Part shown: piece after piece, positions 2,488 to 26,010 of the stretch
Position numbering within the stretch: position 1 is the first letter of the stretch
Layout: every line of letters starts with the position of its first letter
IMG/VR virus record: IMGVR_UViG_3300017613_000950
Span: 1 to 29,512 of that record
From: a virus
Length of the DNA: 29,512 nt
Direction: 5' to 3' (one strand)
Translations under genes and position numbers: made by a program
Notes under the pieces: model-generated
What the model saw: only the letters and a program-made list of their open reading frames with translations
What the model was told of the DNA's origin: nothing
Databases searched by the model: none

Positions 2488-3186
2488 ATGTGGGAAAAAG
2501 CGATTAAGAAAACGATTTTTACGTTGAACATTGATAATTATGCACCGCAAATTACTGAACTTACTTATCCGTTGATCAAGCGGTATGCAGAAAAGATTGG
2601 AGCAGAATTTGTCATTATTGACAAGAGGAAGTTTGAAGGATGGCCTGTAGTGTATGAGAAGTTCCAGATTTATGAATTAGCACAAGAGATGGAAAACGAT
2701 TGGAATATTTATATTGATAGTGATGCACTACTCCATCCCGATTTGATGGATTATACGGTACTCTTGCCAAAAGATACCGTAGCACATCATGGCAGTGACT
2801 TTGCTCCTATCAGGTGGAAAGAAGATCGTTTCTTTGAGCGAGATGGTAGACATATCGGTAGTGGAAATTGGTTTACACTTGCAAGTAGCTTATGCATCGA
2901 GCTTTGGAAACCTCTTGATGATTTAACACTGGAAGAGGCTATTGCAAGAATTTCTCCTACCGTGGATGAGCGAGTAAGTGGAGTGATACCGGCTGATCAC
3001 TTGATTGATGATTTCAATTGTTCAAGGAATATTGCCAAGTATGGATTGAAATTTGTTCCTATCAGGAAATATATGGAACAATGGGGATTTCAAGGTGGAG
3101 GTCCATACTTGTGGCATCAGTACTTGACACCAATTGAAACTAAGTGTGAAGAGATGAAGCGACAAATCAAGCAATGGAGATTGTAA
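2488..3186 (+). CDS. Glycosyltransferase with DXD motif
   Basis: A 232-residue protein with the features of a nucleotide-sugar-dependent glycosyltransferase of the GT-A type, resembling the GT8/GT34 (galactosyltransferase) style. The N-terminal segment TIFTLNIDNYAP begins the nucleotide-binding domain, and YIDSDALLHPD carries the metal-binding DXD at residues 77-79. The C-terminal 'PADHLIDDFN....YGLKFVPI' and 'LWHQYL' segments resemble the conserved Asp and His ends of this fold. No signal peptide or membrane anchor is present, so it should act in the host cytoplasm. The ribosome-binding site AAGGA lies 8 nt upstream. It sits directly behind the methyltransferase gene. Candidate acceptors are the phage's own virion proteins or host surface precursors; neither is shown by the sequence. 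Confidence 0.82.
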   Translation: MWEKAIKKTIFTLNIDNYAPQITELTYPLIKRYAEKIGAEFVIIDKRKFEGWPVVYEKFQIYELAQEMENDWNIYIDSDALLHPDLMDYTVLLPKDTVAHHGSDFAPIRWKEDRFFERDGRHIGSGNWFTLASSLCIELWKPLDDLTLEEAIARISPTVDERVSGVIPADHLIDDFNCSRNIAKYGLKFVPIRKYMEQWGFQGGGPYLWHQYLTPIETKCEEMKRQIKQWRL

Positions 3187-5084: not shown

Positions 5085-5864
5085 ATGCCTGTTCAAATCG
5101 TAAAACAAGGCGCACCTTACCCACCTTGGCAGAAGCCATTGAGGGGAATGGGGTTGGATCGTTCGCATCCGTTGAGTAGGGGGTTGGTTGGTGCATATAT
5201 CTTTAATGAGGGAAGTGGAAGCAAGGTATTTGATTCTGTCTCTCGGGATTTAAAAACGATTGCTGGGGTCAGCTTGTGGGATCGTGGTGGGTACTACACT
5301 GATGGCACTATCGGCAACGGAATCAATGTTGGTTCCACTCTTCAGATAACTGGCAGCTTTACTGTTTGGTCTTTTGTGCGTCCTGGTTTTGATAGGGATG
5401 CTCTCAACTCATCTCATGTTTTCCGTGTAAATTATGGGGGGAATATTGCAGGGATTCGGTGGTATGGCTATTCTACGGACGATTATAGATTGACTGTTGA
5501 AACGTCTGCGGGGTCGAAAAGTGTAACACTGGCAGAAAATGATAATTTCCAAAACGAGGACATTAAGATTTGGTGCCGATATGACGGGGCAAATATATTT
5601 CTTGGAATAGACGAGGGGCGCATCATTGGTAGTACGGCTCAGACCGGAACCCTTACCGCAACTGCTAATAGTTTTATCGGCTGTAGCGATCTTACCGCAA
5701 CGACTGATAGTTGGGATGGGCACATATATGCCACCTACTTTTGGAACCGTGCTCTTACTCCTGCTGAGATGGCATGGCTACACCGTGAACCATACTGCAT
5801 GTTCCAACGATCCCGCCCTTACCGCAAACGATGGTACAAGAAGAAGCTATGGAGGGTCCGCTAA
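5085..5864 (+). CDS. LamG/concanavalin-like virion or adhesion protein, one module
   Basis: A 259-residue protein with CTAGGAGG upstream. It holds one LamG/concanavalin A-like module: a lead segment KPLRGMGLDRSHPLSRGLVGAY (about residues 18-40), FNEGSGSKVFDS, central beta strands, a GIDEGRIIGS hairpin, and the ending FWNRALTPAEMAWLHREPYCMF typical of phage LamG-like proteins. A strongly basic tail (RSRPYRKRWYKKKLWRVR) follows. Such domains bind carbohydrates or other surface ligands, so a receptor-binding or capsid-surface role is likely. Both ends of the module recur twice in the next gene, so the two genes are related by duplication. The stop codon directly abuts the next ATG. Confidence 0.8.
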   Translation: MPVQIVKQGAPYPPWQKPLRGMGLDRSHPLSRGLVGAYIFNEGSGSKVFDSVSRDLKTIAGVSLWDRGGYYTDGTIGNGINVGSTLQITGSFTVWSFVRPGFDRDALNSSHVFRVNYGGNIAGIRWYGYSTDDYRLTVETSAGSKSVTLAENDNFQNEDIKIWCRYDGANIFLGIDEGRIIGSTAQTGTLTATANSFIGCSDLTATTDSWDGHIYATYFWNRALTPAEMAWLHREPYCMFQRSRPYRKRWYKKKLWRVR

Positions 5865-7265
5865 ATGTGGTTCCCTGGTAGCCAAAAGCCTCTTCGTGGA
5901 ACGCTGATTGATCCTAGTCATCCGTTGAGTAGGGGATTGGTCAGAGCTTGGGCCTTCAATGAACTTAGTGGAGAAACGTTACATGATAGTGTAGGTGGTT
6001 TTGGTAAAGGGACTATTTCGGGCGCTTCTTGGGAAGCAGATAGTCTTGCGTTCGATGGTAGCGATTATGTTGACCCCGCAAACGATTACAATATAATTGA
6101 TGCAATTACCGTTTTTGTCAGACTGAAACGCACAGACAATGCGTCCTACAGTCACGCTGTCGGTAGGCACCCAGACTGGTTTGTGGGTTGCGGTGGTGAC
6201 GCAAACCAGAACAAATTCCGCTTCATGATTAACAACTCCAACTCCAGCGGCTATACCGATGCCATTAACGCGAATCAAATCTATAATGTTGTTGGCAGAT
6301 ACGACCACGCGAACGTCTCAATCTGGCTGGATGGTGTTTCGATAGCCAGTGCAGCATACTCCACTAATATTGGCACAACAGGCACAACTACCATCGGTAA
6401 CTACTCAGACCACGGATCAACGTATACATGGCCTGGGAACATTTATGCAGTCTACATTTGGAATCGTGCTCTCTCAACAGCAGAAATCCAATGGCTCCAT
6501 CGTGAATCTTACGCAATGTTCGCACGTTCACGGATCGCAGTTTCCGAAGAACCCGCCGTAGTTCGCAGACAATGGTGGCCTGGATTTCAGAAGCCCCTGC
6601 GTGGGATGCAGCTTGATAAGAGTCATCCGATGGTTAAGGGCATGGTTGGCGCATGGGTGATGAATGAGGGTAGTGGTTCTCACCTTCAAAATCATGCAAG
6701 CGGATTCCTGCACGGCAGTATAAACACAAATACAAGTTGGGCACCCGGTAGTTTGGAGTTTGGCTCAGACGGCAGAGTGGATTGCGGCACAGACGACCTT
6801 GTTGGGGGTAGCGAGGGAATTACTGTTGTCGCTGGTATCAGGGATGATGGCTCTAACAGTTTTGGTCGAATTGCAGACAAATCCTATAACGGTCAGTTTG
6901 CTTTTTATATTACTGACACAAATAGACTTGGCTGTGCCTTCGTCACCGACACAGGGTCAATTGACGATTTTGCTGACCTTTCGATGTCTCAATTAATAGC
7001 GGGGCAGGAATACTCGGTTGCTTTTCGATGGTCTGGTGCTATTGACTACATTCAGTATTTCATTGATGGAATGCACGAAGCATCTGCGGATGCATCTATT
7101 GCCGGGAATACGGTGGCAACATCAAGTGCTCCTTTCTACATCGGCAACCATGTTACCTTTAATAGAGATTTTCTTGGGCGGATTCGTTTTGTTTATCTTT
7201 TTGATCGAGCATTGACCGATGCAGAAATAGCCCTCCTCCACCGTGAACCTTACTGCATGTTCGAC
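5121..7265 (+). repeat. Three paralogous LamG-like modules in two adjacent genes
   Basis: Modules run approximately 5121-5805, 5868-6520 and 6573-7265. Each opens with a KPLRG...SH-P-G-V-A segment and closes with (W/F)(N/D)RAL..AE...LHRE.Y.MF. Opening DNA is nearly identical between the first two copies: CATCCGTTGAGTAGGGG occurs at 5166 and at 5919. The pattern shows two rounds of duplication, and the stop/start between copies 1 and 2 (5862-5867) looks like either a split or an incomplete fusion of one ancestral multi-module protein. Confidence 0.8.
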
Positions 7266-8084
7266 AACGTGCGAAGGTTGGGGGTTAGTGAGGAAGAGGA
7301 AGCCGGGGATCGCAGTGTAAGTGTTGGTGGAACGCTTGCTGCAATAACAAGTTCTGAAGATGCTGAAGTTTTAGTTGATGGCGATGTAGCAGGAACGCTT
7401 GAAGCAATAACAGCTTCTATAAACGCTGTTACTGTTAATGAACGAACTGCTGTTGTTGATGGTGATCTTGCAGCAATAACAAGTGAGCAATCAGCAGAAG
7501 TCCTTGTTGATGGAGCCTTAGCAGGTACGCTTACAGCAATCACTTCTGAACACTCTGCCGAAGTCTTAGTTGATGGTAGTGTTGCTGGTACTCTCGAAGC
7601 AATTACCTCTGAAATTAATGTAGAAACACTTAACGATAGAGATGTTACTGTTGGCGGGACACTTGCTAGTATTACCTCTGAACAATCTGCTAAAGTTCTT
7701 GTAGATGGAGATGTTGCAGGAACACTTGCCGCCATTACTTCTGAAAAGTCTGCTGAAGTTCTTGTTGATGGTGTTGTTGATGGAACGCTTGAAGCAATAA
7801 CCAGTAAAATTAATGTAAATACTACAGGAGATATAAATGCTCAAGTAGGAGGAACACTCGCACCTATAACAGCTTCACTTGCTGCGGAAGTATTGGTGAG
7901 TAGTGAAGTTGCAGCAACTTTGGCAGCAATAACAGCAAATGTAAATGCTCAAGTAGAAGTGGCTGGGGTTATAGATGCAGATTTGGCAGCGTTAACGGCA
8001 CGTATAAGAGTAAACACGACTGGTTATACTAATACAGATTCACGCATAATTGATGGTGCTGGTCATTCAATTATTGGAGGATAA
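5865..8084 (+). CDS. Large two-module LamG protein with C-terminal 21-residue tandem repeats
   Basis: A 739-residue protein starting directly after the previous stop, with GGAGG 8 nt upstream. Module A (about residues 1-218) begins WFPGSQKPLRGTLIDPSHPL and ends IWNRALSTAEIQWLHRES. Module B (about 237-467) begins WWPGFQKPLRGMQLDKSHPM and ends LFDRALTDAEIALLHREP. Both are LamG/concanavalin-like and parallel the single module of the preceding gene. Residues ~483-716 are about eleven degenerate copies of a ~21-residue unit (consensus EVLVDGDVAGTLAAITSEQSA), predicted to be beta-rich and acidic. A short Gly-rich end follows. The architecture suggests a virion fibre or adhesin, with ligand-binding modules followed by a repetitive stalk. 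There are no signal peptide or enzyme residues. Repeat number may vary through recombination. Confidence 0.82.
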   Translation: MWFPGSQKPLRGTLIDPSHPLSRGLVRAWAFNELSGETLHDSVGGFGKGTISGASWEADSLAFDGSDYVDPANDYNIIDAITVFVRLKRTDNASYSHAVGRHPDWFVGCGGDANQNKFRFMINNSNSSGYTDAINANQIYNVVGRYDHANVSIWLDGVSIASAAYSTNIGTTGTTTIGNYSDHGSTYTWPGNIYAVYIWNRALSTAEIQWLHRESYAMFARSRIAVSEEPAVVRRQWWPGFQKPLRGMQLDKSHPMVKGMVGAWVMNEGSGSHLQNHASGFLHGSINTNTSWAPGSLEFGSDGRVDCGTDDLVGGSEGITVVAGIRDDGSNSFGRIADKSYNGQFAFYITDTNRLGCAFVTDTGSIDDFADLSMSQLIAGQEYSVAFRWSGAIDYIQYFIDGMHEASADASIAGNTVATSSAPFYIGNHVTFNRDFLGRIRFVYLFDRALTDAEIALLHREPYCMFDNVRRLGVSEEEEAGDRSVSVGGTLAAITSSEDAEVLVDGDVAGTLEAITASINAVTVNERTAVVDGDLAAITSEQSAEVLVDGALAGTLTAITSEHSAEVLVDGSVAGTLEAITSEINVETLNDRDVTVGGTLASITSEQSAKVLVDGDVAGTLAAITSEKSAEVLVDGVVDGTLEAITSKINVNTTGDINAQVGGTLAPITASLAAEVLVSSEVAATLAAITANVNAQVEVAGVIDADLAALTARIRVNTTGYTNTDSRIIDGAGHSIIGG
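7314..8012 (+). repeat. About eleven degenerate 63-bp (21-residue) coding repeats
   Basis: In-frame units of 21-23 codons following the pattern (E/K)VLVDG.(V/L)AGTL.AITSE.(S/N)(A/V). Copies near 7360-7610 and 7690-7800 are the most alike, and the last two are the most diverged. Some units use a shorter lead (NERTAVVDGDLAAITS, GDINAQVGGTLAPITA), giving an alternating higher-order pattern. DNA-level similarity (GTTGATGG...GGAACGCTTGAAGCAATAAC) should allow slippage or recombination. Confidence 0.85.
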
Positions 8085-8086
8085 AA

Positions 8087-8383
8087 ATGTCTTGGAAAGC
8101 TCTTAGTTCAGGAAAGCTAACGACAAGTCAAGTAGTTTACACTGGACCCTGCTTCTATTTTGGCTTTGCTTGCAGAAATGGAGGGGCGAGTTTTACTGTA
8201 ACTGCATATGATAGTCTTGCAGCAACAGGAACAGAAATTGAGGATTATCAAACTGATGCAAACAAAGAAATGGAGGGCCATGTTCACAATTCACCCATCA
8301 CTTGTAGTAATGGCATTTATCTAACATTAGGTGGAGGAACGGCGATTGTTTATTACACACCCCTACGCGAAGGAGTACAGTGA
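8087..8383 (+). CDS. Small beta-rich protein preceding the radical SAM gene
   Basis: A 98-residue protein with ATTGGAGG upstream. Strand-like segments alternate with glycine turns (VVYTGPCFYFGFACRNGGASFTVTAYDSLAATGTEIEDY, and GIYLTLGGGTAIVYYTP). There are three Cys (two near residues 23-29, one near 73). It is in tight tandem with the radical SAM gene: its TGA overlaps that gene's ATG by one base. I do not recognise it. It could be a small virion surface protein, or a substrate or partner of the adjacent enzyme; only the coupling supports the second idea. Confidence 0.65.
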   Translation: MSWKALSSGKLTTSQVVYTGPCFYFGFACRNGGASFTVTAYDSLAATGTEIEDYQTDANKEMEGHVHNSPITCSNGIYLTLGGGTAIVYYTPLREGVQ

Positions 8384-9336
8384 TGAAATCACTATGCGAC
8401 ATGGACACCATCCAAATCGAGCTTACTGATGCATGTAGAATGAGTTGTAGCAATTGTACAAGGTTTTGTGGTCATAAAAAGCCTTGGTATTTAAGCGAAG
8501 AAGATTTTAAGAATGCTGTAGATTCAATGAATGGCTATCCTCAAATGGTTGGATTTATGGGTGGTGAACCGCTATTGCATCCTAAGTTCAAAGAGTTCTG
8601 TGAGTATGCACAAACTAAAATTCCCAAGGAACAGTTAGGTCTTTGGACAGCCTTACCAAAAGGTCATGAGGATTATGCAGAACTAATTTGCCAAACCTTT
8701 GATCACATCTTTATCAATGACCATACTCGAAGTGATATTTTTCATGCTCCAATTCTTGTATCTAGTAAAGAGATTTTTAAAGACTTACGAAGAATCTTTT
8801 ATGTCGCTGATAAATGCTGGTTGCAAAATGCATGGTCAGCATCCATTACTCACAAGGGAGCATTCTTTTGTGAAATTGCTGCTTCCTTATCTACTCTGTT
8901 TGATGGTAGTAATGGCTGGAAAGTGGAACCGGGATGGTGGTGGAAAACACCGAAGGATTACACCGCGCAGATTGAAGAGTTTTGTCCTCAGTGTGGAGTG
9001 TGTGCTCCTTTAAAGCGAAGAAGAAGTGTTGAAGGAATTGATGATATTTCTCCTGAAAACTATGAGCGATTGAAGGATGTTTCGTTAAAGATCAAGCGAG
9101 GCGATTATGTCATACATGATCTAAGCCTAGTTACACAAGAAGAACTTGAAAAACAACCGATGGCAGCATACAAAGATTTTGTATTTCGCAGTCAAATTGC
9201 AGCTAAATACAACATTTCACTTTCAGTAAATGAAAAGAAGTTTGTCCGACCTCACTATGGCTGTAGTGTGAAATTACCCAATACATCAATCTTCGAAGAG
9301 TATAAAGAAAAATATGGAGGACATGTAAATGTCTAG
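8383..9336 (+). CDS. Radical SAM enzyme with extra C-terminal cysteines (SPASM/twitch-like)
   Basis: A 317-residue protein. I choose ATG 8383 over the GTG at 8380 because AAGGAG (8370-8375) is then 7 nt away. The radical SAM cluster motif CX3CX2C is C18-C22-C25 (TDACRMSCSNCTRF), and GGEP at 60-63 matches the SAM-binding motif after strand 2. C145, C163, and the closely spaced C201, C204 and C207 (FCPQCGVC) could hold an auxiliary Fe-S cluster, as in SPASM or twitch domains. The family makes 5'-deoxyadenosyl radicals to modify peptides, sugars or other substrates; the substrate here is unknown. It overlaps the next gene by 8 nt and the previous one by a base, so the three are co-translated. 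An enzyme of this kind inside a virion gene block is uncommon. Confidence 0.85.
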   Translation: MKSLCDMDTIQIELTDACRMSCSNCTRFCGHKKPWYLSEEDFKNAVDSMNGYPQMVGFMGGEPLLHPKFKEFCEYAQTKIPKEQLGLWTALPKGHEDYAELICQTFDHIFINDHTRSDIFHAPILVSSKEIFKDLRRIFYVADKCWLQNAWSASITHKGAFFCEIAASLSTLFDGSNGWKVEPGWWWKTPKDYTAQIEEFCPQCGVCAPLKRRRSVEGIDDISPENYERLKDVSLKIKRGDYVIHDLSLVTQEELEKQPMAAYKDFVFRSQIAAKYNISLSVNEKKFVRPHYGCSVKLPNTSIFEEYKEKYGGHVNV

Positions 9337-9658
9337 AACACTAACTCTTGCTATGGGTGGTCAGTCATATGGACCTACAAAGGTTGCTTCGACCAATGCG
9401 AATCAAGCCTTACCAGCAGCAGTGCTTACTAATGCTTCTAGGAGTGCTGTTCGTGTTGTGATTACTGTCGAAGATAATACTATCCGTTATGCTTTTGGAG
9501 GAATTATTCCAACACAAGGAACATTAGGACATCTTCTAACTGCTAATGAATCGCTTGTGATTGGGCATCCAGCAAGTATTGCATCTTTTAGATTTATTAG
9601 TGATGCCGCTAATACGCATGGTAATCTGCAAATTACAGGTGAATATGGAACAATTTAA
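9329..9658 (+). CDS. Small beta-rich hypothetical protein
   Basis: A 109-residue protein that begins 8 nt inside the end of the radical SAM gene, with GGAGG 8 nt before its ATG. It looks like a small beta-sandwich: repeated alternating strands (AVRVVITVEDNTIRYAFGG, ESLVIGHPASIASFRFIS, GNLQITGEYGTI) with no Cys, membrane segment or enzyme motif. I recall similar small proteins widely among tailed phages near capsid and fibre genes, where their function is unassigned. Likely a minor structural protein. Coupling to the radical SAM gene makes it another possible substrate or partner. Confidence 0.65.
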   Translation: MSRTLTLAMGGQSYGPTKVASTNANQALPAAVLTNASRSAVRVVITVEDNTIRYAFGGIIPTQGTLGHLLTANESLVIGHPASIASFRFISDAANTHGNLQITGEYGTI

Positions 9659-10093: not shown

Positions 10094-10492
10094 ATGACCT
10101 TTGGTACGGAATGGACTCCTGATAAACATGTTAGAAGCCTTATTGAACGGGCTGATCTTTCTGTTCACGGTATAGAACTTATAATGCTATATGACATTAC
10201 TACTTTCCGACTGAATAAGAAATTTTGGAAGTTAGGTATATCCTTGACAAGAAGTAAGATTGTTTTTAACCCTCGTATTACTGATTATCCATTAGAATAT
10301 CAAGCAAAGAAGATTTGCCATGAACTTACTCATGGAGCACAGCGAAGTTTTTATGGAGCTAAATTTATTTTTATGTATATTGGACAATGGATTAAAGCAG
10401 GATGTGATTACAACGAAATGAAAACATTTGGACTTGAGCGGAGAGCAATTGAAGTAGAGCAAGCTTTTGAACAATCACGAAGGGGAATGTAA
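10094..10492 (+). CDS. Small zinc metallopeptidase-like protein (HEXXH)
   Basis: A 132-residue protein whose ATG follows the previous stop directly, with AAGGAG 9 nt upstream. The zincin motif HELTH is at 76-80 (KKICHELTHGAQRS); a downstream helix GLERRAIEVEQAF supplies candidate third ligands E115, E120 or E122. The N-terminal half has beta-like segments (KLGISLTRSKIVFNP) that in zincins usually precede the active-site helix. No signal peptide is seen. The next gene starts at its stop (TAATG). Possible roles are protein maturation in virion assembly, host protein cleavage, or peptidoglycan cross-link hydrolysis beside the membrane protein upstream. Phage zincins of this size are mostly uncharacterised. 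Confidence 0.7.
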   Translation: MTFGTEWTPDKHVRSLIERADLSVHGIELIMLYDITTFRLNKKFWKLGISLTRSKIVFNPRITDYPLEYQAKKICHELTHGAQRSFYGAKFIFMYIGQWIKAGCDYNEMKTFGLERRAIEVEQAFEQSRRGM

Positions 10493-11136
10493 TGACTACT
10501 TTCGGGAGCATAAAAACTCTTGTTCATACAGGACTTGCTAGAGATACAACTGATCCTGCTGCATTGTTAGTTGTCCCGGCAGCAATTAATTGGGCAATTC
10601 AGGCAGCAGCCATTTTGTTTAAACCGAAGGAGTTAGCAACTTCTGATGATGTAACAGTACTTGCAGGAAAAACTCTTGTGGAATTTGACTATAATTTTAT
10701 TGATATACAAAGTGTTGTTCCAGTATTGTCTGTTGGTAAAGATCTCCATTTTATTCCTTATGAATCATTTAGAACTCTTGTTCCTTGGGTTACATCAGAT
10801 CCAGAATATTACACAATGTTTGGAAAATTTATTGTTATAAATGCTATAGCTGGTTCAAACATTGCCCTTCGAGTTTTTTGGTTACAGCTTCCTGATGATC
10901 TAGATGATGATGAAGATGATCTTCCATTTGTTGGGCAAGATGGCTTTATTGTTTCATTAGCTTCTGCACTTGCATTTGCTATGTTTGAAGAGGGGGAAAC
11001 AGTTGATGTATGGACAAAGATGAGTGAAATTCTTGGTATGCCATTAATACAACGAACAAAGATGCAAGAGGTAATGCAAGGTATTCCTGCTTCTCTTGAA
11101 GCAAAACTTTCCGGTACACTTGCAGGAGGTAAGTGA
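10492..11136 (+). CDS. Head-tail adaptor-like protein, first copy
   Basis: A 214-residue protein starting at a TAATG overlap. The pattern is an N-terminal helical segment (AINWAIQAAAILFKPKELAT), a beta middle (VLAGKTLVEFDYNFIDIQSVVPVL...FIPYESFRTLVPW), an aspartate-rich loop (LQLPDDLDDDEDDLPF) and C-terminal helices (IVSLASALAFAMFEEGETVDVW). The same order is found in the next gene, and it resembles phage adaptor/connector proteins that dock to the portal. It uses more A/T-ending codons than its neighbour. The extreme acidic loop DDLDDDEDD is a distinctive difference. Whether both copies go into the virion is unknown. Confidence 0.65.
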   Translation: MTTFGSIKTLVHTGLARDTTDPAALLVVPAAINWAIQAAAILFKPKELATSDDVTVLAGKTLVEFDYNFIDIQSVVPVLSVGKDLHFIPYESFRTLVPWVTSDPEYYTMFGKFIVINAIAGSNIALRVFWLQLPDDLDDDEDDLPFVGQDGFIVSLASALAFAMFEEGETVDVWTKMSEILGMPLIQRTKMQEVMQGIPASLEAKLSGTLAGGK

Positions 11137-11840
11137 TGGCGAACACTTCATACGAAGAATTTATCCGTAGAGTTATGATAAATCTACAACCCCGTGTTGA
11201 TGGAACAATTCTGTTAGCTACAAAAGAAGCTATCAACGATGCGCTATATGTAATTGCTTGTGTCAAAGACTTCGATGAGTTGATGACGTTGGATAAGACT
11301 AGCGCAGATACCGTTGATGGCACGAAAAGCTACCACATCGACAATGACTTTGGTTTGACTCGATGCAAAGATATTTATTCGATCAGGCTGATGAGTGAAG
11401 ATGAATCTCGCAAGCTCATCTACATTCCATTCAGGAAGCTTGATGAAGAAGTTCCTTACACAGAACAGACCGGAGAAGGAAAGTCGAAGTGGTACACAGT
11501 ACGTGGAAAGTACGTCGAGTTGTACCGCATTCCTGATGATGCATACGATCTCTATATTCAACACAGTCAATGGCCCTCTGTGCTTGAAGATGACAGTGAT
11601 CAGACCGAATACGAGAACATCGATTATGTGATTGTGTCATTGAGTACTGAAATGGCTCTTGCATCACTTGAAGGTGGAAATTCCAATTGGTTGCAAAGAG
11701 CACAGTACTTGCTTGGTATCTCTGTCAACGAAGAAAAGACACGCCCCGATGTTCGGTATGTAGCTGAACCGTTCGTAGCCACAAACCCCGGACCGCCGGG
11801 AGAGTATTGGAATAACCCTTGGGTTAAACACCAACCATAA
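11136..11840 (+). CDS. Head-tail adaptor protein, second copy
   Basis: A 234-residue protein. ATG 11136 is preferred over GTG 11133 because GGAGG (11125-11129) sits 6 nt away, and the stop of the previous gene overlaps at TGATG. The layout is: helical start (EEFIRRVMINLQPRVDG, TKEAINDALYVIACVKDFDEL), beta middle (YHIDNDFGLTRCKDIYSIRL, RKLIYIPFRKLDEEVPY, KYVELYRIPDDAYDLYIQHSQWPSVLEDDSD), then a C-terminal helix rich in Leu/Ser (IVSLSTEMALASLEGGNSNWLQ) and a Pro/Gly-rich tail. This is the typical pattern of adaptor proteins that join the portal to the tail in podoviruses. Its base composition is closer to the capsid and ejection genes than to the AT-rich genes around it. Confidence 0.75.
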   Translation: MANTSYEEFIRRVMINLQPRVDGTILLATKEAINDALYVIACVKDFDELMTLDKTSADTVDGTKSYHIDNDFGLTRCKDIYSIRLMSEDESRKLIYIPFRKLDEEVPYTEQTGEGKSKWYTVRGKYVELYRIPDDAYDLYIQHSQWPSVLEDDSDQTEYENIDYVIVSLSTEMALASLEGGNSNWLQRAQYLLGISVNEEKTRPDVRYVAEPFVATNPGPPGEYWNNPWVKHQP

Positions 11841-12613: not shown

Positions 12614-13807
12614 ATGGTTGACTGGAAAACACAAAGAACTCCGTTATTGCCTTCCATTCCTGTTGAGAGTGAGAAGGATGATTTTCAACGCTTGATTAAA
12701 TGGCGACGTTCGATGCTTGATGTAATCTCTCTTCATGCAGCGAATGTTCATGATGATCTTCGCCAATGTGTGGCAGATGTTAGTAATACCGCTGAAATTG
12801 ATTTAGATATAACAGATAATATCTTATCGGCAAATCTTAATAATGCTAACATTCCTCTCGATGCTCACGGAAAAACAATATATGTTAGTTATTTAGATGC
12901 AAATGCTGCTAATCATGGGTTGTGTCCTAAGTTAAGTGGTGATGCGAATGATTTTTTAGCTGGTAATGGAGCGTGGATCGAACGGGTGGACTCAAATGTA
13001 TCTAAGCATGGGTTATGTCCACAGTTATCAGGAAATGGAAGTGAGTACTTAGATGGAGATGGGAATTGGACTGAACCAGCAGGAGGAGGAGGAGGATACA
13101 GTAATCTTACTGAATTTGTTGATCAAACTGCACATAGAATGTTCTATTCAAATGCCGCTGGTAATGTAACAGAATTACCGCATGGTACTGTTTATAAAGT
13201 TTTAATGAGTTCAGGAGTCAATGCAACTCCTGCTTGGACACATCTTATGATGGCTCACCATTTTAATGAAACAAATTGGAGAATGTTTTATAGTAACGGT
13301 ATAGGTGATGTTACTGGTTTAGCATTTGGTTCTTCTGGAAAAGTACTTACAAGTGGTGGGGCAAATGCTATACCTACTTGGGAAACTCCTCAGGAGTTTA
13401 GTACAGATATAACTATAATGGGATGGGAGTTTAATGCCAACAACGGAACTTGGGTAAATGTACAGAACTCTTACCAATTTATCAATATGTACAAAACAAA
13501 CTATACAGCAGCCAATAATAATAATGTGATTGCTAATGCGTTTTTTGCAAACGGTACATATGAAGCACGTTTCCTTGGACGGACAACAGCAAATAGTGGG
13601 ATTTTGAAGCTTTATATAGGAGGTGTCGAGAAGGCTTCTTGGGATATGTATCATTCTACTGGGATGTGGAATGAAGATCTTGCTAACACAGGAATTAGTA
13701 TTTCAGCTGGAGCACAGCAAGTTAGGCTTCAGGTAGTAGGTAAACATGCAAGTTCTAGTGGTTATAGAGCATACATAACATCCTTAACTTTGAGGAAATA
13801 TGCATGA
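12614..13807 (+). CDS. Putative tail fibre with internal repeats
   Basis: A 397-residue protein. The N-terminal ~60 residues (KWRRSMLDVISLHAANVHDDL) may attach to the tail. Two copies of an HGLCP(K/Q)LSG...(F/Y)L.G.G.W unit lie at about 97-123 and 127-153, a repeat often seen in phage fibres. A Gly-rich hinge (AGGGGGY) follows, then a second pair of ~38-residue repeats (RMFYSNAAGNVTEL...PAWTH and RMFYSNGIGDVTGL...PTWET). The C-terminal ~130 residues look like a beta-sandwich (GILKLYIGGVEKASWDMY, GAQQVRLQVVGKH), possibly a binding head. A receptor-binding fibre is the best guess. It overlaps the nozzle gene by ATGA. Confidence 0.72.
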   Translation: MVDWKTQRTPLLPSIPVESEKDDFQRLIKWRRSMLDVISLHAANVHDDLRQCVADVSNTAEIDLDITDNILSANLNNANIPLDAHGKTIYVSYLDANAANHGLCPKLSGDANDFLAGNGAWIERVDSNVSKHGLCPQLSGNGSEYLDGDGNWTEPAGGGGGYSNLTEFVDQTAHRMFYSNAAGNVTELPHGTVYKVLMSSGVNATPAWTHLMMAHHFNETNWRMFYSNGIGDVTGLAFGSSGKVLTSGGANAIPTWETPQEFSTDITIMGWEFNANNGTWVNVQNSYQFINMYKTNYTAANNNNVIANAFFANGTYEARFLGRTTANSGILKLYIGGVEKASWDMYHSTGMWNEDLANTGISISAGAQQVRLQVVGKHASSSGYRAYITSLTLRKYA

Positions 13808-15366
13808 GAAAACAACCTTACCCAATGACTCAATTGACAGGTGGTTTAGATGTTTCTATTGATCCAATCTTTTTAATGGATAGGACTAGTCCAAATCTTC
13901 GTAATATTCGTTTGCATAAGTCAATGATTAGAAAAGAGTTGGGTTGGAAACAGTTTAGTGCTAGTGGAGCAAATGGATTACCGTTGGATTCAGAAGTTAT
14001 GTTGATTGATTCGTTTCCTATGGCAAACGGTACTTCTCATGCAGTATTTGTAACAGCTAATACCTTTTACTCTTACGATTCCGATGATGAAGAATATACT
14101 TCTCGAATGCCTGCAAATACATCATTTACATCTACGTTGGATAATCCATATAGTGCAACAATTACTGTTAACGTGGCAGGGACAGAAGTTTATGTCATAA
14201 CTAATGGTGTTGATCCTGTGTATTATTGGACAGGTGCAGCTAACCTAGCAGAACTTTCAGGATGGGAAGGGCATCCAATTGAAGGGATCATACGTCCAAG
14301 GCAAATTATACATTTTAAGAATCGGTTAATATGTGGTGGTGGAACAGAAAGTGGAAAGGCTCATCCCCGGCGAGTCAGATGGTCTGTTTTAGGTAATCCT
14401 AATGATGCAAATAGTACTGGATCAGGTTATGTAGATTTATATGATACAACAGACTGGATTACTGCTTTTGTAATTATGAAAGACCGATTGTTTATAGTGA
14501 AAGAACGTTCAATCTGGGAACTTGAATACGTTGGCGGTGATTCTATCTTTACTCCCGCTTTGAAAGTAGACGGTGTAGGTAGCTATTCTCCGCATGGGGT
14601 TATTTCATTGGATGAAGAAATGATCTTTTATGGAAGTGATAATGTTTATACGTTTGATGGATTCAGCCTTAAGCCTATGGGCGGTCAGATCTATTCTTAT
14701 CTATATGAAGCATTGGAACGCCGAGTAAATGCAAGTATGGCTCCAAGATTTCCTGCTGCTTATATTGAAGAGTTGAAATTATTTATGATGTGCCTTACAC
14801 AGAAATTTGGAACTGTTCCAGATCTAGTCTATAAGTATGATTATGATTATGATGCTTGGACAACTGTTGAACGTGAGATGACTGCTATTGGATATTGGGG
14901 TACTGAAGGTACAGGAACAACATTGTGGAATGAGCTTACTGATGATTGGGATGAACTTGATTGGGTTTGGTTGTCAAGAAACCTTGCTCCTGGTGCTCCT
15001 ACAACACTGATTGGTGATAGTAATGGATATATTTATGAAGATGATCGGCTTACTACTTCAACAGACCATATGATGTATGAAACAAAAGATTTTATTTTTG
15101 AACATGCGGTGCGTTGGGTTGAGTTTAGAATACAAGCAAAGTACGGTCCTTTTAGAGTAAGCTATTCGATTGATGGAGGAGCAACATGGTCAAATGCTCA
15201 TGAGTTTGGAGTCGTTACACAGTTCACCGAGTTCAGTTGGTTGCTAAATATTACATCACAGAAGATTCGTTTTAGAATTGAATGTGATGCTGAATCGTTG
15301 GATATCAAATGGATCGAGCCTTGGTACGTCCTGCGTAAACGAAGTAAGATATTGGTGACATCATGA
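13804..15366 (+). CDS. Tail nozzle / head-completion (stabilisation) protein
   Basis: A 520-residue protein starting in a 4-nt ATGA overlap. The opening PYPMTQLTGGLDVSIDPIFLMDRTSPNLRNIRL is the recognisable start of podoviral nozzle/stabilisation proteins (P22 gp10 and T7 gp12 type), where 'GG+D..' is followed by 'S..+.N+...'. The body has repeated strand blades (VIMKDRLFIVKERSIWELEYVGGD, IFYGSDNVYTFDGFSLKPMGG, YKYDYDYDAWTTVEREMTAIGYW) consistent with a beta-propeller. The C-terminal half continues with strands (VRWVEFRIQAKYGPFRVSYSIDGGATW). It would form the lower tail tube through which DNA passes. Nearby adaptor genes and the downstream ejection genes fit this role. Confidence 0.78.
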   Translation: MRKQPYPMTQLTGGLDVSIDPIFLMDRTSPNLRNIRLHKSMIRKELGWKQFSASGANGLPLDSEVMLIDSFPMANGTSHAVFVTANTFYSYDSDDEEYTSRMPANTSFTSTLDNPYSATITVNVAGTEVYVITNGVDPVYYWTGAANLAELSGWEGHPIEGIIRPRQIIHFKNRLICGGGTESGKAHPRRVRWSVLGNPNDANSTGSGYVDLYDTTDWITAFVIMKDRLFIVKERSIWELEYVGGDSIFTPALKVDGVGSYSPHGVISLDEEMIFYGSDNVYTFDGFSLKPMGGQIYSYLYEALERRVNASMAPRFPAAYIEELKLFMMCLTQKFGTVPDLVYKYDYDYDAWTTVEREMTAIGYWGTEGTGTTLWNELTDDWDELDWVWLSRNLAPGAPTTLIGDSNGYIYEDDRLTTSTDHMMYETKDFIFEHAVRWVEFRIQAKYGPFRVSYSIDGGATWSNAHEFGVVTQFTEFSWLLNITSQKIRFRIECDAESLDIKWIEPWYVLRKRSKILVTS

Positions 15367-22457: not shown

Positions 22458-23797
22458 TCTTTTTTCTCCCAAAGTTTTCGCTCTGCTTCTTCATCGATGC
22501 ATTTTTGTGTTAGATTGTGCGGAGAACCTCCTTGTGTTAAGCATCGTGGGATTCTGCAAACTTCTTCTTTCTTTTTCTTCTTGTCTCTCCGATGATAGAC
22601 GTACTCTTTTCGTTCAGGATGCATTACAGGGATGATGAGTCCTGCTTTTTTCATGACACTCAACGCTTCGTAGAATTGGCGTTCGCCTTGTGAAAGACTT
22701 CTGTAGACCATGTTCATCAAAACGCTTTCGGGCAACTCTTCGTAATGGTCAAAGAGTTCTTTCATCTCTTGGATCAAGTGCATCCGTGGATGCGTAGTCA
22801 ATGACTTAATCCTAGATCGCGTTTCTGGCAGGATGGCACGTAGGATGTTCTGTGCCTGTTGAATTGTATCAGTATGGAGAATCATGCTCTGTTTGTTCAA
22901 CTCAAGAGCCATAGCGAGTTTGAGGGCTTGTTCACATTCAGCTTCCACGTATGCATCGTACTGTTCATCTCCGGTGGGTGTGAATGATTCATAGTACAGG
23001 CGGTAGTGCTCCTTGCTCTCGTCAGTCCATTCCATCTGACCATCAAGAACACGAAGCTCACCCATCGACTCTACAAGCTTGTCCCATGACGAACCTCCCG
23101 GTTTCGTAGGGTCGGCGTTGCGAACGTTGTAGGTGATAGGCATCTCTACCAAGATGAACCTACGCATGAAGCCACCTGTGAATGCGTCTTGCGGGATCAT
23201 TGATTGAAGCCACTTTGGAGTGCTACCTGCGATGATTGACAAACAATTGCGTCTTAGTATCTCCTTTCCTCTTCCAATAGTTTCACTACGCCATTCCTCC
23301 CTGTAATCATAGAGGTCTGTAATAAGGCTGACCATGCCTGTATTGTACTGTTGCTTACCAAACAGAACAGACATCTCAGGGGCTTTGATAAGTCCAGTGG
23401 CATCTCTAGGACCAACTCTAACTGTTTCCTTTGGAGTAATAGGAGCAGCCAATGCATGAACGATAGCCTCCGGTGTAAGTTTATCGGCTAGGATTCTTGC
23501 TTCGGGAAATGCTTCTACTAGGCAGTTTACTGCCATGTTGATTGTTGATGTTTTGTGTCCACGGTACGGAGGTGCGAGTAATGTTACCCATAGATTGGGC
23601 ATCAGGGGTGGCAACAAGCCTGTACTTCCTCGTTGCAACCACACTCGATTGTTTACTGCTGCACCTAACGCACAAACGGCTGAGAAAAACTTGAACCGTG
23701 GACATGCCTCTAGGTTGTTGGTGAAGTTTAAGTAGTCACCTAACCAACCCTCTTGAGGCAGGAAGTCTGTGACTGCATCAAACATCGGTCCTTTCAT
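22454..23797 (-). CDS. DUF3987-like ATPase, putative replicative helicase/primase-associated
   Basis: A 447-residue protein. It has a P-loop-like segment APPYRGHKTST (residues 75-85); the residue before the invariant Lys is His instead of Gly, as in the looser P-loops of DUF3987-type proteins. Other matches include SVLFGKQQYNTGMVSLITDLYDYREEWRSETIGRGKE and CLSIIAGSTPKWLQSMIPQDAFTGGFMRRF, the pattern of this family around Walker B and sensor regions. A C-terminal ~110-residue winged-helix-like part (VYRSLSQGERQFYEALSVMKKAGLIIPV) and a basic tail follow. Such proteins are often next to phage polymerases and are thought to unwind or load at forks. It starts one base inside the polymerase stop (TAATG). 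Confidence 0.7.
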   Translation of the reverse strand: MKGPMFDAVTDFLPQEGWLGDYLNFTNNLEACPRFKFFSAVCALGAAVNNRVWLQRGSTGLLPPLMPNLWVTLLAPPYRGHKTSTINMAVNCLVEAFPEARILADKLTPEAIVHALAAPITPKETVRVGPRDATGLIKAPEMSVLFGKQQYNTGMVSLITDLYDYREEWRSETIGRGKEILRRNCLSIIAGSTPKWLQSMIPQDAFTGGFMRRFILVEMPITYNVRNADPTKPGGSSWDKLVESMGELRVLDGQMEWTDESKEHYRLYYESFTPTGDEQYDAYVEAECEQALKLAMALELNKQSMILHTDTIQQAQNILRAILPETRSRIKSLTTHPRMHLIQEMKELFDHYEELPESVLMNMVYRSLSQGERQFYEALSVMKKAGLIIPVMHPERKEYVYHRRDKKKKKEEVCRIPRCLTQGGSPHNLTQKCIDEEAERKLWEKKE

Positions 23798-26010
23798 TAG
23801 TTGATCTCTTCCAAGTCATACCAGTTGTTGCCTATAGCGGCGTTAACAGGGAAAGACATTCCATCCAGTTCAGCGATAGGTTGTTCCATAATGCGTTGCA
23901 TCTCTTTAGCCACATCGTGCTTATCTTTTTCTGGAGCCTGGAGTGTGATCGAGTCATGGACGGTGAGGCGAAGATCGAATCCTGCCTTGTGCAGATCTAC
24001 GATTGCTTTCAAACACACATCACTTCCTGCTGATTGGATGGGAGTGTTATATGCTTGAGTCACCGAAGTAATCAAACGTCCTCGACCAAATGGGTTGAAT
24101 GCTTTGTTCGTCTTGCGGAAGGTTGCTTCTTGGTTCTTGTGGTAAGTAGTGAACTCAGGGTATTTTCGCAAACACAGTTCTTGCCAGCGCGTAGCTTCTT
24201 TAATCGTGCAACCGAACTGACGAGAGATAGCGGTGGGGCCTCTGCCGTAGGCAGTACCGAACACAACGTTCTTCGTCCATACCTGTTGCTTGTCGGTCAA
24301 GCGTTCCCATTTCTTGCCGAAGATGATCTTGCACATCTCGTGGTGTACATTAAGACCACCTGCGATCTCCTTCAACATCAACGGTACTTGAGCCACGACA
24401 GCAAGGACTCTAACTTCGAGTTGTGAGTAGTCAGCATCAACGAAAACGAATCCGTGGTCGGGTACATACATCGCTCTGAGACTTTTCGGAACATTCTGTA
24501 AGTTTGGGTCAACACTGGAGAGCCTTCCCGTTCCTGCACCACCAATTTTGAAATGAGTGTGTATACGACCATCCTCCAACCTGTCCAACACACCATCAAC
24601 GTACACACTGAGCACCTTCTTCGCAGCCCGATAGTCAAGCACATCTTGCATTACCTCTTTCTGTTCATGGTCCTGTTTGATACACTTTTTAAGGGTTTCT
24701 TCATTGCTTGACGCGACACCAAAAAATTCTTTGAGTTGCTTTGAACTGTTTGGATTCAAATCTAATGGATCGAAGACCTCTTCAATGAATCGGTCCACTG
24801 TAGGTTGGTGTTCTTTCTTCAGTACAGCGAGTTTCTGTTGATCTACAAGAACTCCCTTTTTCTCCATTGCATTGATTGCATGCACCAATGGGATCTCAAT
24901 CTCTTCCATCACTGTTAGATTGCCGGTGTCCATGTCGTTCATTTGTTCTTCGTAGACAAGGAACGTCACCAACGCATCCTTACAAGCGTATTCGTTCCTG
25001 CGTTCCGCAGACCATGAAGAGATGACTTTCATTTCTGCTTTGGTTGGCTTGTAAGGCTTAACGTAAGTATACTTTGATCTAAGGAAATCGAGACTGGCAG
25101 GGAGGTTGCTGGTAAGAAGATGTTCTGCGAGGCGTGTATCAAAGATAAGTCCCTCAGTGTTGATATCATGGTTGCCAAGCATTGCACAATCGAATTGGGC
25201 GTTCTGCATAACTTTGTGGGCATTCTTGTCCTCCGACCATCTCTTTAGAGGTTCCCAAAGTGGGGAGTTGTCATTCAGGTCAAACGCAACTGCACGATTT
25301 TTCTCATAGCACAATGAAGCTCCGATTACCCGATCTTTGCGTGGATTCAATCCAGTTGTTTCGGTGTCGATTGCTGTGACTCGCTTCGATGCTTCTTCAA
25401 GGTAGCGTTGTAATTGATACTCATCAAAGTCGGTGATGAACTCACAGTGCTCTGCTACTTCGACCTCTCCGGTTGCCATGTACCTTACTGCTTTCATGTG
25501 ATCCTGAATGGCAATCTGTATCCATTGACGTTGACGCATGCAGAAGCTTGGGTGTAACGAGTACAAGACCATGCAATCGTATTCGAAGAAAGGGTCGAGG
25601 GGGTCCATTGTTCCACGTATGGATTGAATGCTTCCTTTGCCTGTAAGTGCTTTTGAAGCTGTATCACCTAAGGCAATGATCAAGGTAGGTTCGGAACGAT
25701 GGATGTCGTCTTTGAGAAAATGTCTACAAAGAGCGACTTCTTTTGGGGAGGGTTTACGGTCTAGTGGGGGAGCACATTTTGCGGTGTTGGTACTGTCTAC
25801 CTTTCGTTTGTCGATCCCGGCCTCCTTCATGATCCTCCATTCCATCTTACCAGCAGGACCGCTGAAGACTTGTCCGGTGATCGTTTCTACATCGCCGGGA
25901 GCTTGACCTACGAACAACATGTCATACTGCTTGTGTGGTGTGAAGTACGGTCTGACGTATGTACAATCCTTTAGCCCACACTCAATGCAAACCTGCTCGC
26001 CAGGTTTCAT
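23797..26010 (-). CDS. Uracil-DNA glycosylase (family 4) fused to family A DNA polymerase
   Basis: A 737-residue fusion. Residues 1-~185 match a family 4 uracil-DNA glycosylase: GQAPGDVETITGQVFSGPAG (35-54), HPS (153-155), and Fe-S ligands C8, C11, C79 and C95 with family-like spacing. Residues ~190-370 are the 3'-5' proofreading exonuclease, with D215/E217 (AIDTETTG), NAQFD and YACKDALVT all present. Residues ~370-737 are the polymerase: motif A DADYSQLE with D527; motif B K580..F584..Y588G (TKNVVFGTAYG), where F584 aligns with E. coli Pol I Phe762; motif C VHDS (684-687), with Ser in place of the usual Glu. AAAGGA lies 5 nt upstream. The enzyme would replicate phage DNA and recognise or excise uracil. 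The 5'-nuclease domain is absent, as is normal for phage enzymes. Confidence 0.93.
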   Translation of the reverse strand: MKPGEQVCIECGLKDCTYVRPYFTPHKQYDMLFVGQAPGDVETITGQVFSGPAGKMEWRIMKEAGIDKRKVDSTNTAKCAPPLDRKPSPKEVALCRHFLKDDIHRSEPTLIIALGDTASKALTGKGSIQSIRGTMDPLDPFFEYDCMVLYSLHPSFCMRQRQWIQIAIQDHMKAVRYMATGEVEVAEHCEFITDFDEYQLQRYLEEASKRVTAIDTETTGLNPRKDRVIGASLCYEKNRAVAFDLNDNSPLWEPLKRWSEDKNAHKVMQNAQFDCAMLGNHDINTEGLIFDTRLAEHLLTSNLPASLDFLRSKYTYVKPYKPTKAEMKVISSWSAERRNEYACKDALVTFLVYEEQMNDMDTGNLTVMEEIEIPLVHAINAMEKKGVLVDQQKLAVLKKEHQPTVDRFIEEVFDPLDLNPNSSKQLKEFFGVASSNEETLKKCIKQDHEQKEVMQDVLDYRAAKKVLSVYVDGVLDRLEDGRIHTHFKIGGAGTGRLSSVDPNLQNVPKSLRAMYVPDHGFVFVDADYSQLEVRVLAVVAQVPLMLKEIAGGLNVHHEMCKIIFGKKWERLTDKQQVWTKNVVFGTAYGRGPTAISRQFGCTIKEATRWQELCLRKYPEFTTYHKNQEATFRKTNKAFNPFGRGRLITSVTQAYNTPIQSAGSDVCLKAIVDLHKAGFDLRLTVHDSITLQAPEKDKHDVAKEMQRIMEQPIAELDGMSFPVNAAIGNNWYDLEEIN

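Follow-up and report, generated by a model that had tools for sequence, protein, structure and literature searches.

The window, a 29.5-kb IMG/VR virus record, encodes major-head, tail and replication genes. It opens with the C-terminal end of a major head protein (8–403, + strand), 76–80% identical to the protein of two related loci, L003 and L005, that matches the PHROG family 'major head protein'. On the same strand follow, in order, a methyltransferase gene (1968–2483), a GT-A glycosyltransferase (GT) gene (2488–3186), a 5.2-kb stretch in which some genes are lectin-like (Laminin_G_3), and a radical SAM gene (8383–9336). The last is flanked by two small + strand genes, encoding proteins of 98 aa (8087–8383) and 109 aa (9329–9658), and a virion structural protein lies further downstream (13804–15366, + strand; phrog_3287, E = 5 × 10−37). 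The lectin-like genes include two adjoining Laminin_G_3 (concanavalin-like) proteins (5085–8084), the second with two domains and C-terminal repeats like VDGDVAGTLEAITSE. Two adjacent genes of one family (10492–11840), resembling a tail-gene tandem duplication, are also adjacent in the closest relative of the window, L002. On the minus strand (23797–26010), a DNA polymerase A carries an N-terminal uracil-DNA-glycosylase domain (PF03167 and PF00476), fusing a repair glycosylase to a replicative polymerase.

The radical SAM reading frame starts with ATG, with an in-frame GTG just before it at 8380, and encodes 317 aa. Its sequence places the product, an oxygen-sensitive enzyme, in the radical SAM superfamily. 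The CX3CX2C motif is present as C18, C22 and C25 (8434–8457, + strand), the predicted ligands of the SAM-binding [4Fe–4S] cluster, and is kept wherever aligned in 99 relatives. A GGEP motif occupies residues 60–63, and Pfam Radical_SAM (PF04055) matches at E = 3.2 × 10−8 and 34.4 bits (cut-off 29.5), as it does all 18 aligned members of the family. This agrees with the first-pass annotation, which had recognized a radical SAM enzyme from the CX3CX2C and GGEP motifs. An NCBIfam search returned many core matches, all below threshold, and domain-family searches found no SPASM family above cut-off for the enzyme or its 18 aligned members.

A first scan with the radical SAM sequence of the window returned one relative, L002, at 70% identity. 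A second scan returned L003, in which the radical SAM start overlaps the stop of a GT-like gene homologous to window positions 2488–3186, and a scan with the GT gene picked up 27 phage loci, with the radical SAM enzyme encoded alongside in 21. With an 18-member radical SAM alignment as the query, 210 viral stretches were confirmed and the 80 best retained; the same query gave 142 confirmed matches in bacterial and archaeal genomes, with 77 loci kept. The gene is thus not a chance reading frame, given its 70% identical homologue and the 58 distinct phage-clade sequences (window included). Searching phage and plasmid sequences by tblastn gave core-domain matches only, so the family assignment rests on metagenomic relatives.

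Beyond the N-terminal motif, five further cysteines had been taken as evidence of a SPASM/twitch-type enzyme. All five are present in the window, and four of them are conserved: C145 (8815–8817), C163 (8869–8871), C201 (8983–8985) and C204 (8992–8994), together spanning 8815–8994 on the + strand, are kept wherever aligned across 99 phage and bacterial sequences, whereas C207 (9001–9003) is replaced by Ala in 58 of 74 viral and 18 of 25 bacterial rows. The core barrel of the AlphaFold2 model (pLDDT 91.7) starts at residue 9; C145 precedes and C163 follows a β-hairpin (152–161), and a later helix (194–203) has C201 at its end and C204 beyond it. The twitch arrangement of BtrN and SkfB likewise places a cysteine on either side of a β-hairpin and two cysteines after the next helix (PMC6231123). 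The modelled enzyme shows this twitch pattern, with one predicted auxiliary cluster. By contrast, the seven-Cys SPASM motif, CX9-15GX4C-gap-CX2CX5CX3C-gap-C, which serves two auxiliary clusters (PMC6231123), is absent from the 99-sequence alignment, where both the CX5CX3C element and the last cysteine are missing. The four conserved extra cysteines and the likeness of the model to SpeY and BtrN therefore indicate a twitch enzyme with one auxiliary cluster, resembling sugar or aminocyclitol alcohol dehydrogenases, and speak against a peptide enzyme of the seven-Cys SPASM type; the twitch half of the earlier assignment stands, on cysteine pattern and fold, and the SPASM half falls.

Comparison of the model with the PDB in Foldseek gave five matches with E ≤ 10−3, namely four SpeY chains and BtrN. 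SpeY (PDB 7wzv, 7wzx and 7x0b), a bacterial enzyme of the spectinomycin pathway, is of the twitch type like the phage enzyme, and the title of its PDB entry describes a twitch radical SAM dehydrogenase. It is the top match (E = 3 × 10−7, ~250 columns, 15–16% identity, TM ~0.5); we know of no phage glycosyltransferase partner for it. BtrN (PDB 4m7t and 4m7s) follows with E = 4.8 × 10−4 and 14% identity. It catalyses the two-electron oxidation of an aminocyclitol alcohol and has a single auxiliary cluster, fully ligated by four cysteines (PMC9012708), recalling the four conserved cysteines here; it belongs to butirosin synthesis and differs in being shorter (~250 aa) and in acting on a free aminocyclitol. 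The enzymes SkfB, CteB, PqqE and SuiB gave E > 10−3, mostly with ~100 core columns aligned (SkfB, E = 1.9 × 10−3 over only ~100 columns), and a viral fold library gave weak matches only. The first-pass annotation had expected a peptide-modifying enzyme; the best matches are instead to enzymes acting on sugars or small molecules, an outcome that the annotation had itself named as counting against it. At the distance of SpeY and BtrN (TM ~0.5, 14–16% identity), the exact reaction is something we infer, and radical SAM clustering does not tell the substrate (PMC6231123).

The gene neighbourhood supplies a partner. The GT (232 aa, with a DSD motif) has no Pfam match and is assigned from its linkage to the radical SAM locus, its model (pLDDT 95.2) and its top PDB match, the PBCV-1 capsid glycosyltransferase (E = 3 × 10−7, 12% identity); as GT-A folds are widespread and the identity is this low, the match is a resemblance and not proof of homology. 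Among 57 distinct phage-clade loci recovered by the radical SAM query alone (phage-clade score of at least 400 bits, GT tallied on all forward frames), the GT lies upstream of the radical SAM gene in 56. The sole exception, L146, is cut by the contig end 643 nt upstream of that gene. The GT stop and radical SAM start are at most 60 nt apart in 31 listed loci (a few of them the same contig twice), mostly with a 4-bp overlap. The GT-linked phage enzymes group in a single clade (59 rows, support 94/97) together with L032, from a GT-bearing MAG contig, and the truncated L146, and pairwise distances of GT and radical SAM sequences correlate (r = 0.54, 0 of 2,000 permutations). Spacing between the two genes reaches 5.2 kb in the window, and L002 carries a similar but shorter insertion of 3.2 kb; the insertion in the window hid the true partner from the first-pass annotation. 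One phage contig (L132:5094–8456) has two GT copies, one on either side of the radical SAM gene. The only GT relative in the annotated phage collection, in Marine virus AG-345-E08 (L186), had no radical SAM or methyltransferase gene of the module families within the 11.5 kb around it, so the GT can occur without the radical SAM enzyme. The radical SAM enzyme, for its part, nearly always travels with this one GT, and hence quite probably acts on a sugar and not on its two small neighbours.

Other genes join the pair in some phages. The class I SAM methyltransferase of the window (Methyltransf_24, PF13578, E = 6.4 × 10−13) is an optional member: 18 of 58 phage-clade loci have one, and equally 18 of the 58 have an NAD epimerase no more than 6 kb away; no nucleotide-sugar pathway was seen in the window itself. 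Several of these activities also occur fused in single proteins: radical SAM with methyltransferase in L113, radical SAM with a galactosyltransferase domain in a viral contig (L177:1484–4465), radical SAM with GT8 in a bacterial Methylomirabilis MAG (L081:3068–5545), and GT with methyltransferase in L131 and in the 410-aa reading frames of L017, L019, L020 and L021.

The bacterial twitch relatives (L033, L034, L039, L058 and others) are ~34–54% identical and share the same four auxiliary cysteines. They differ in often reaching 430–600 aa, with a C-terminal extension, and in lacking the phage-type GT, which accompanies only L032, the MAG contig that groups with phages. Within four genes of the bacterial enzymes (65 loci, one representative per cluster matched to families) we found GT2 (35), NAD epimerase (22), FkbM methyltransferase (13), DUF4422 (10), nucleotidyltransferase (8) and WavE (5). 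The bacterial relatives thus lie among glycan genes, with no constant protein partner. Glycan genes also surround a distant cyanophage relative, whose cluster includes glycosyltransferases and an annotated inosamine amidinotransferase gene.

The siting of the gene inside a virion block, already claimed on first inspection, is borne out and extends well beyond the window. Of 57 GT-bearing loci, 29 have a head, portal, scaffold or tail gene nearby that is homologous to a reference protein. In the other 28, not all of which were classified protein by protein, module-adjacent proteins include other major head families (phrog_617, 10, 4523, 267 and 1328), many families of tail fibres and a terminase. 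Several unrelated head lineages thus carry the module next to capsid or tail genes, and the recurrence of this siting makes it a repeated feature of the module and no accident of the window. A phage GT is linked here to virion genes; that its glycan is placed on the virion is what we infer from this linkage.

On balance, we favour a reading in which the twitch radical SAM enzyme and the phage GT-A, in some phages with a methyltransferase or NAD epimerase, build a modified glycan, most likely on a virion protein. The N-terminal [4Fe–4S] cluster would cleave SAM, and the resulting 5′-deoxyadenosyl radical would abstract a hydrogen from a carbon of a free, nucleotide-linked or already attached sugar. 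Much as BtrN and probably SpeY do, the enzyme would pass the second electron to its four-Cys auxiliary cluster and so yield an oxidized (keto) sugar. The GT-A, in some phages together with a methyltransferase or NAD epimerase, would work with the radical SAM enzyme on building the glycan. Whether this chemistry is a dehydrogenation we regard as an even call. Since capsid and tail genes border the module in several unrelated lineages, a virion protein is the most likely carrier, and the virion as target is somewhat favoured. Counting against the reading as a whole are the distant SpeY and BtrN matches, the generic nature of the GT-A likeness, the lack of a visible nucleotide-sugar pathway in the window, the 5.2 kb that part its GT and radical SAM genes, and the integrases of some carriers. 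A more specific proposal, that several unrelated head lineages share a module whose radical SAM enzyme oxidizes a sugar to give the virion an unusual glycan coat, is tentative and falls a little short of even.

The same GT and radical SAM module could instead act on the host, altering LPS or capsule glycans of its surface during lysogeny or in the late stage of infection and so blocking re-adsorption by progeny or competitors. Bacterial relatives in surface-polysaccharide-type clusters are consistent with this, and host-surface modification is conceivable given that 4 of 18 carrier records encode an integrase. Most carrier records, the window included, show no integrase, although records may be incomplete, and the module lies inside capsid and tail blocks in several unrelated lineages; we therefore consider a host target unlikely. 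Less probable still is direct alteration of a virion protein side chain, for example to make a glycan attachment site that the GT then glycosylates. Peptide-acting twitch enzymes such as SkfB exist (PMC6231123) and the module adjoins head genes, but with its barrel starting at residue 9 the phage enzyme has no N-terminal peptide-recognition domain, the SkfB alignment is confined to the short core given above, and the bacterial relatives have glycan genes around them in place of a constant protein partner. DNA hypermodification, with the GT glycosylating a modified base and the radical SAM enzyme altering base or sugar, has a precedent in phage glycosyltransferases that act on modified DNA (cited in PMC12619734). 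It is highly improbable here: none of 18 carrier records encodes a thymidylate-synthase-family hydroxymethylase (PF00303), none gave a TET/JBP match (PF12851) in a search that had no working positive control, and the module genes stand among structural and not replication genes.

The first-pass annotation had proposed the two small neighbours as translationally coupled substrates. The overlaps are real in the window: the stop of the 98-aa gene (8381–8383) overlaps the radical SAM start, and the 109-aa gene starts at 9329, inside the radical SAM end. Coupling on the upstream side is not conserved, as a 36-codon reading frame (MQAKCTHKRSFF...; L002:7895–8005) that is missing from the window intervenes between the 98-aa gene and the radical SAM gene of L002. 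Neither small protein has a domain-family match. Among the fetched contigs, L002 and L005 alone encode a homologue of the 98-aa protein, which in L005 lies more than 4 kb from the radical SAM gene; the 109-aa protein has one in L002 alone, and a scan with it confirmed nothing. Set against a GT in 56 of 57 loci, both proteins fall outside the conserved module, and as general substrates of the enzyme they are not plausible. Nor did we find the features of a RiPP maturase, namely a conserved precursor peptide or an N-terminal extension of RRE size. A SPASM-type peptide maturase acting on these two proteins, which their overlapping frames and joint presence in L002 might suggest, is hardly credible and was rejected, since the proteins are missing from nearly all other carriers, a reading frame intervenes in L002, the seven-Cys motif is absent and the fold matches sugar and cyclitol enzymes.

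For glycan building on the virion, the reading we favour, the nearest known systems each share a part. A064R of chlorovirus PBCV-1 adds rhamnose to the major capsid glycan and also methylates it (PMC7826918, PMC5408694). Like the fused proteins of some phages here, it combines GT and methyltransferase in a single chain; it differs in its chlorovirus setting, its early-expressed genes and the absence of a radical SAM step from the available text (PMC7826918). In the mycobacteriophages Che8, Corndog and Myrna, phage-encoded GTs decorate capsid and tail tube; the available part of that source mentions no radical SAM enzyme, and we liken those GTs to the present one by role and not by homology (PMC12363180). 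A search of open papers, with subscription literature mostly outside its reach, returned no description of such a phage radical SAM–GT module. If correct, our reading would add a radical-chemistry step to virion glycosylation, without precedent found in the open literature, and would join two hardly overlapping fields, the radical SAM sugar chemistry of antibiotic pathways and the virion glycosylation of mycobacteriophages and chloroviruses. An uncharacterized radical SAM family (210 viral and 142 bacterial or archaeal matches) would gain the hypothesis that it acts on glycans, with the GT partner as a handle, and, given the fused radical SAM–methyltransferase and radical SAM–GT8 forms, single proteins would suffice to test the pathway.

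A separate observation concerns the major head gene of L002, which is split (L002:1700–2560). Its frame departs from the family sequence past 'MEMTD' and returns at 'WKQIPDQPF' ~650 bases on. The insert matches no Rfam family at threshold and has no Pfam match. It contains a reading frame with a LAGLIDADG-like stretch, AYLAGFLDGEGSF, and the arrangement resembles an intron that carries a homing endonuclease.
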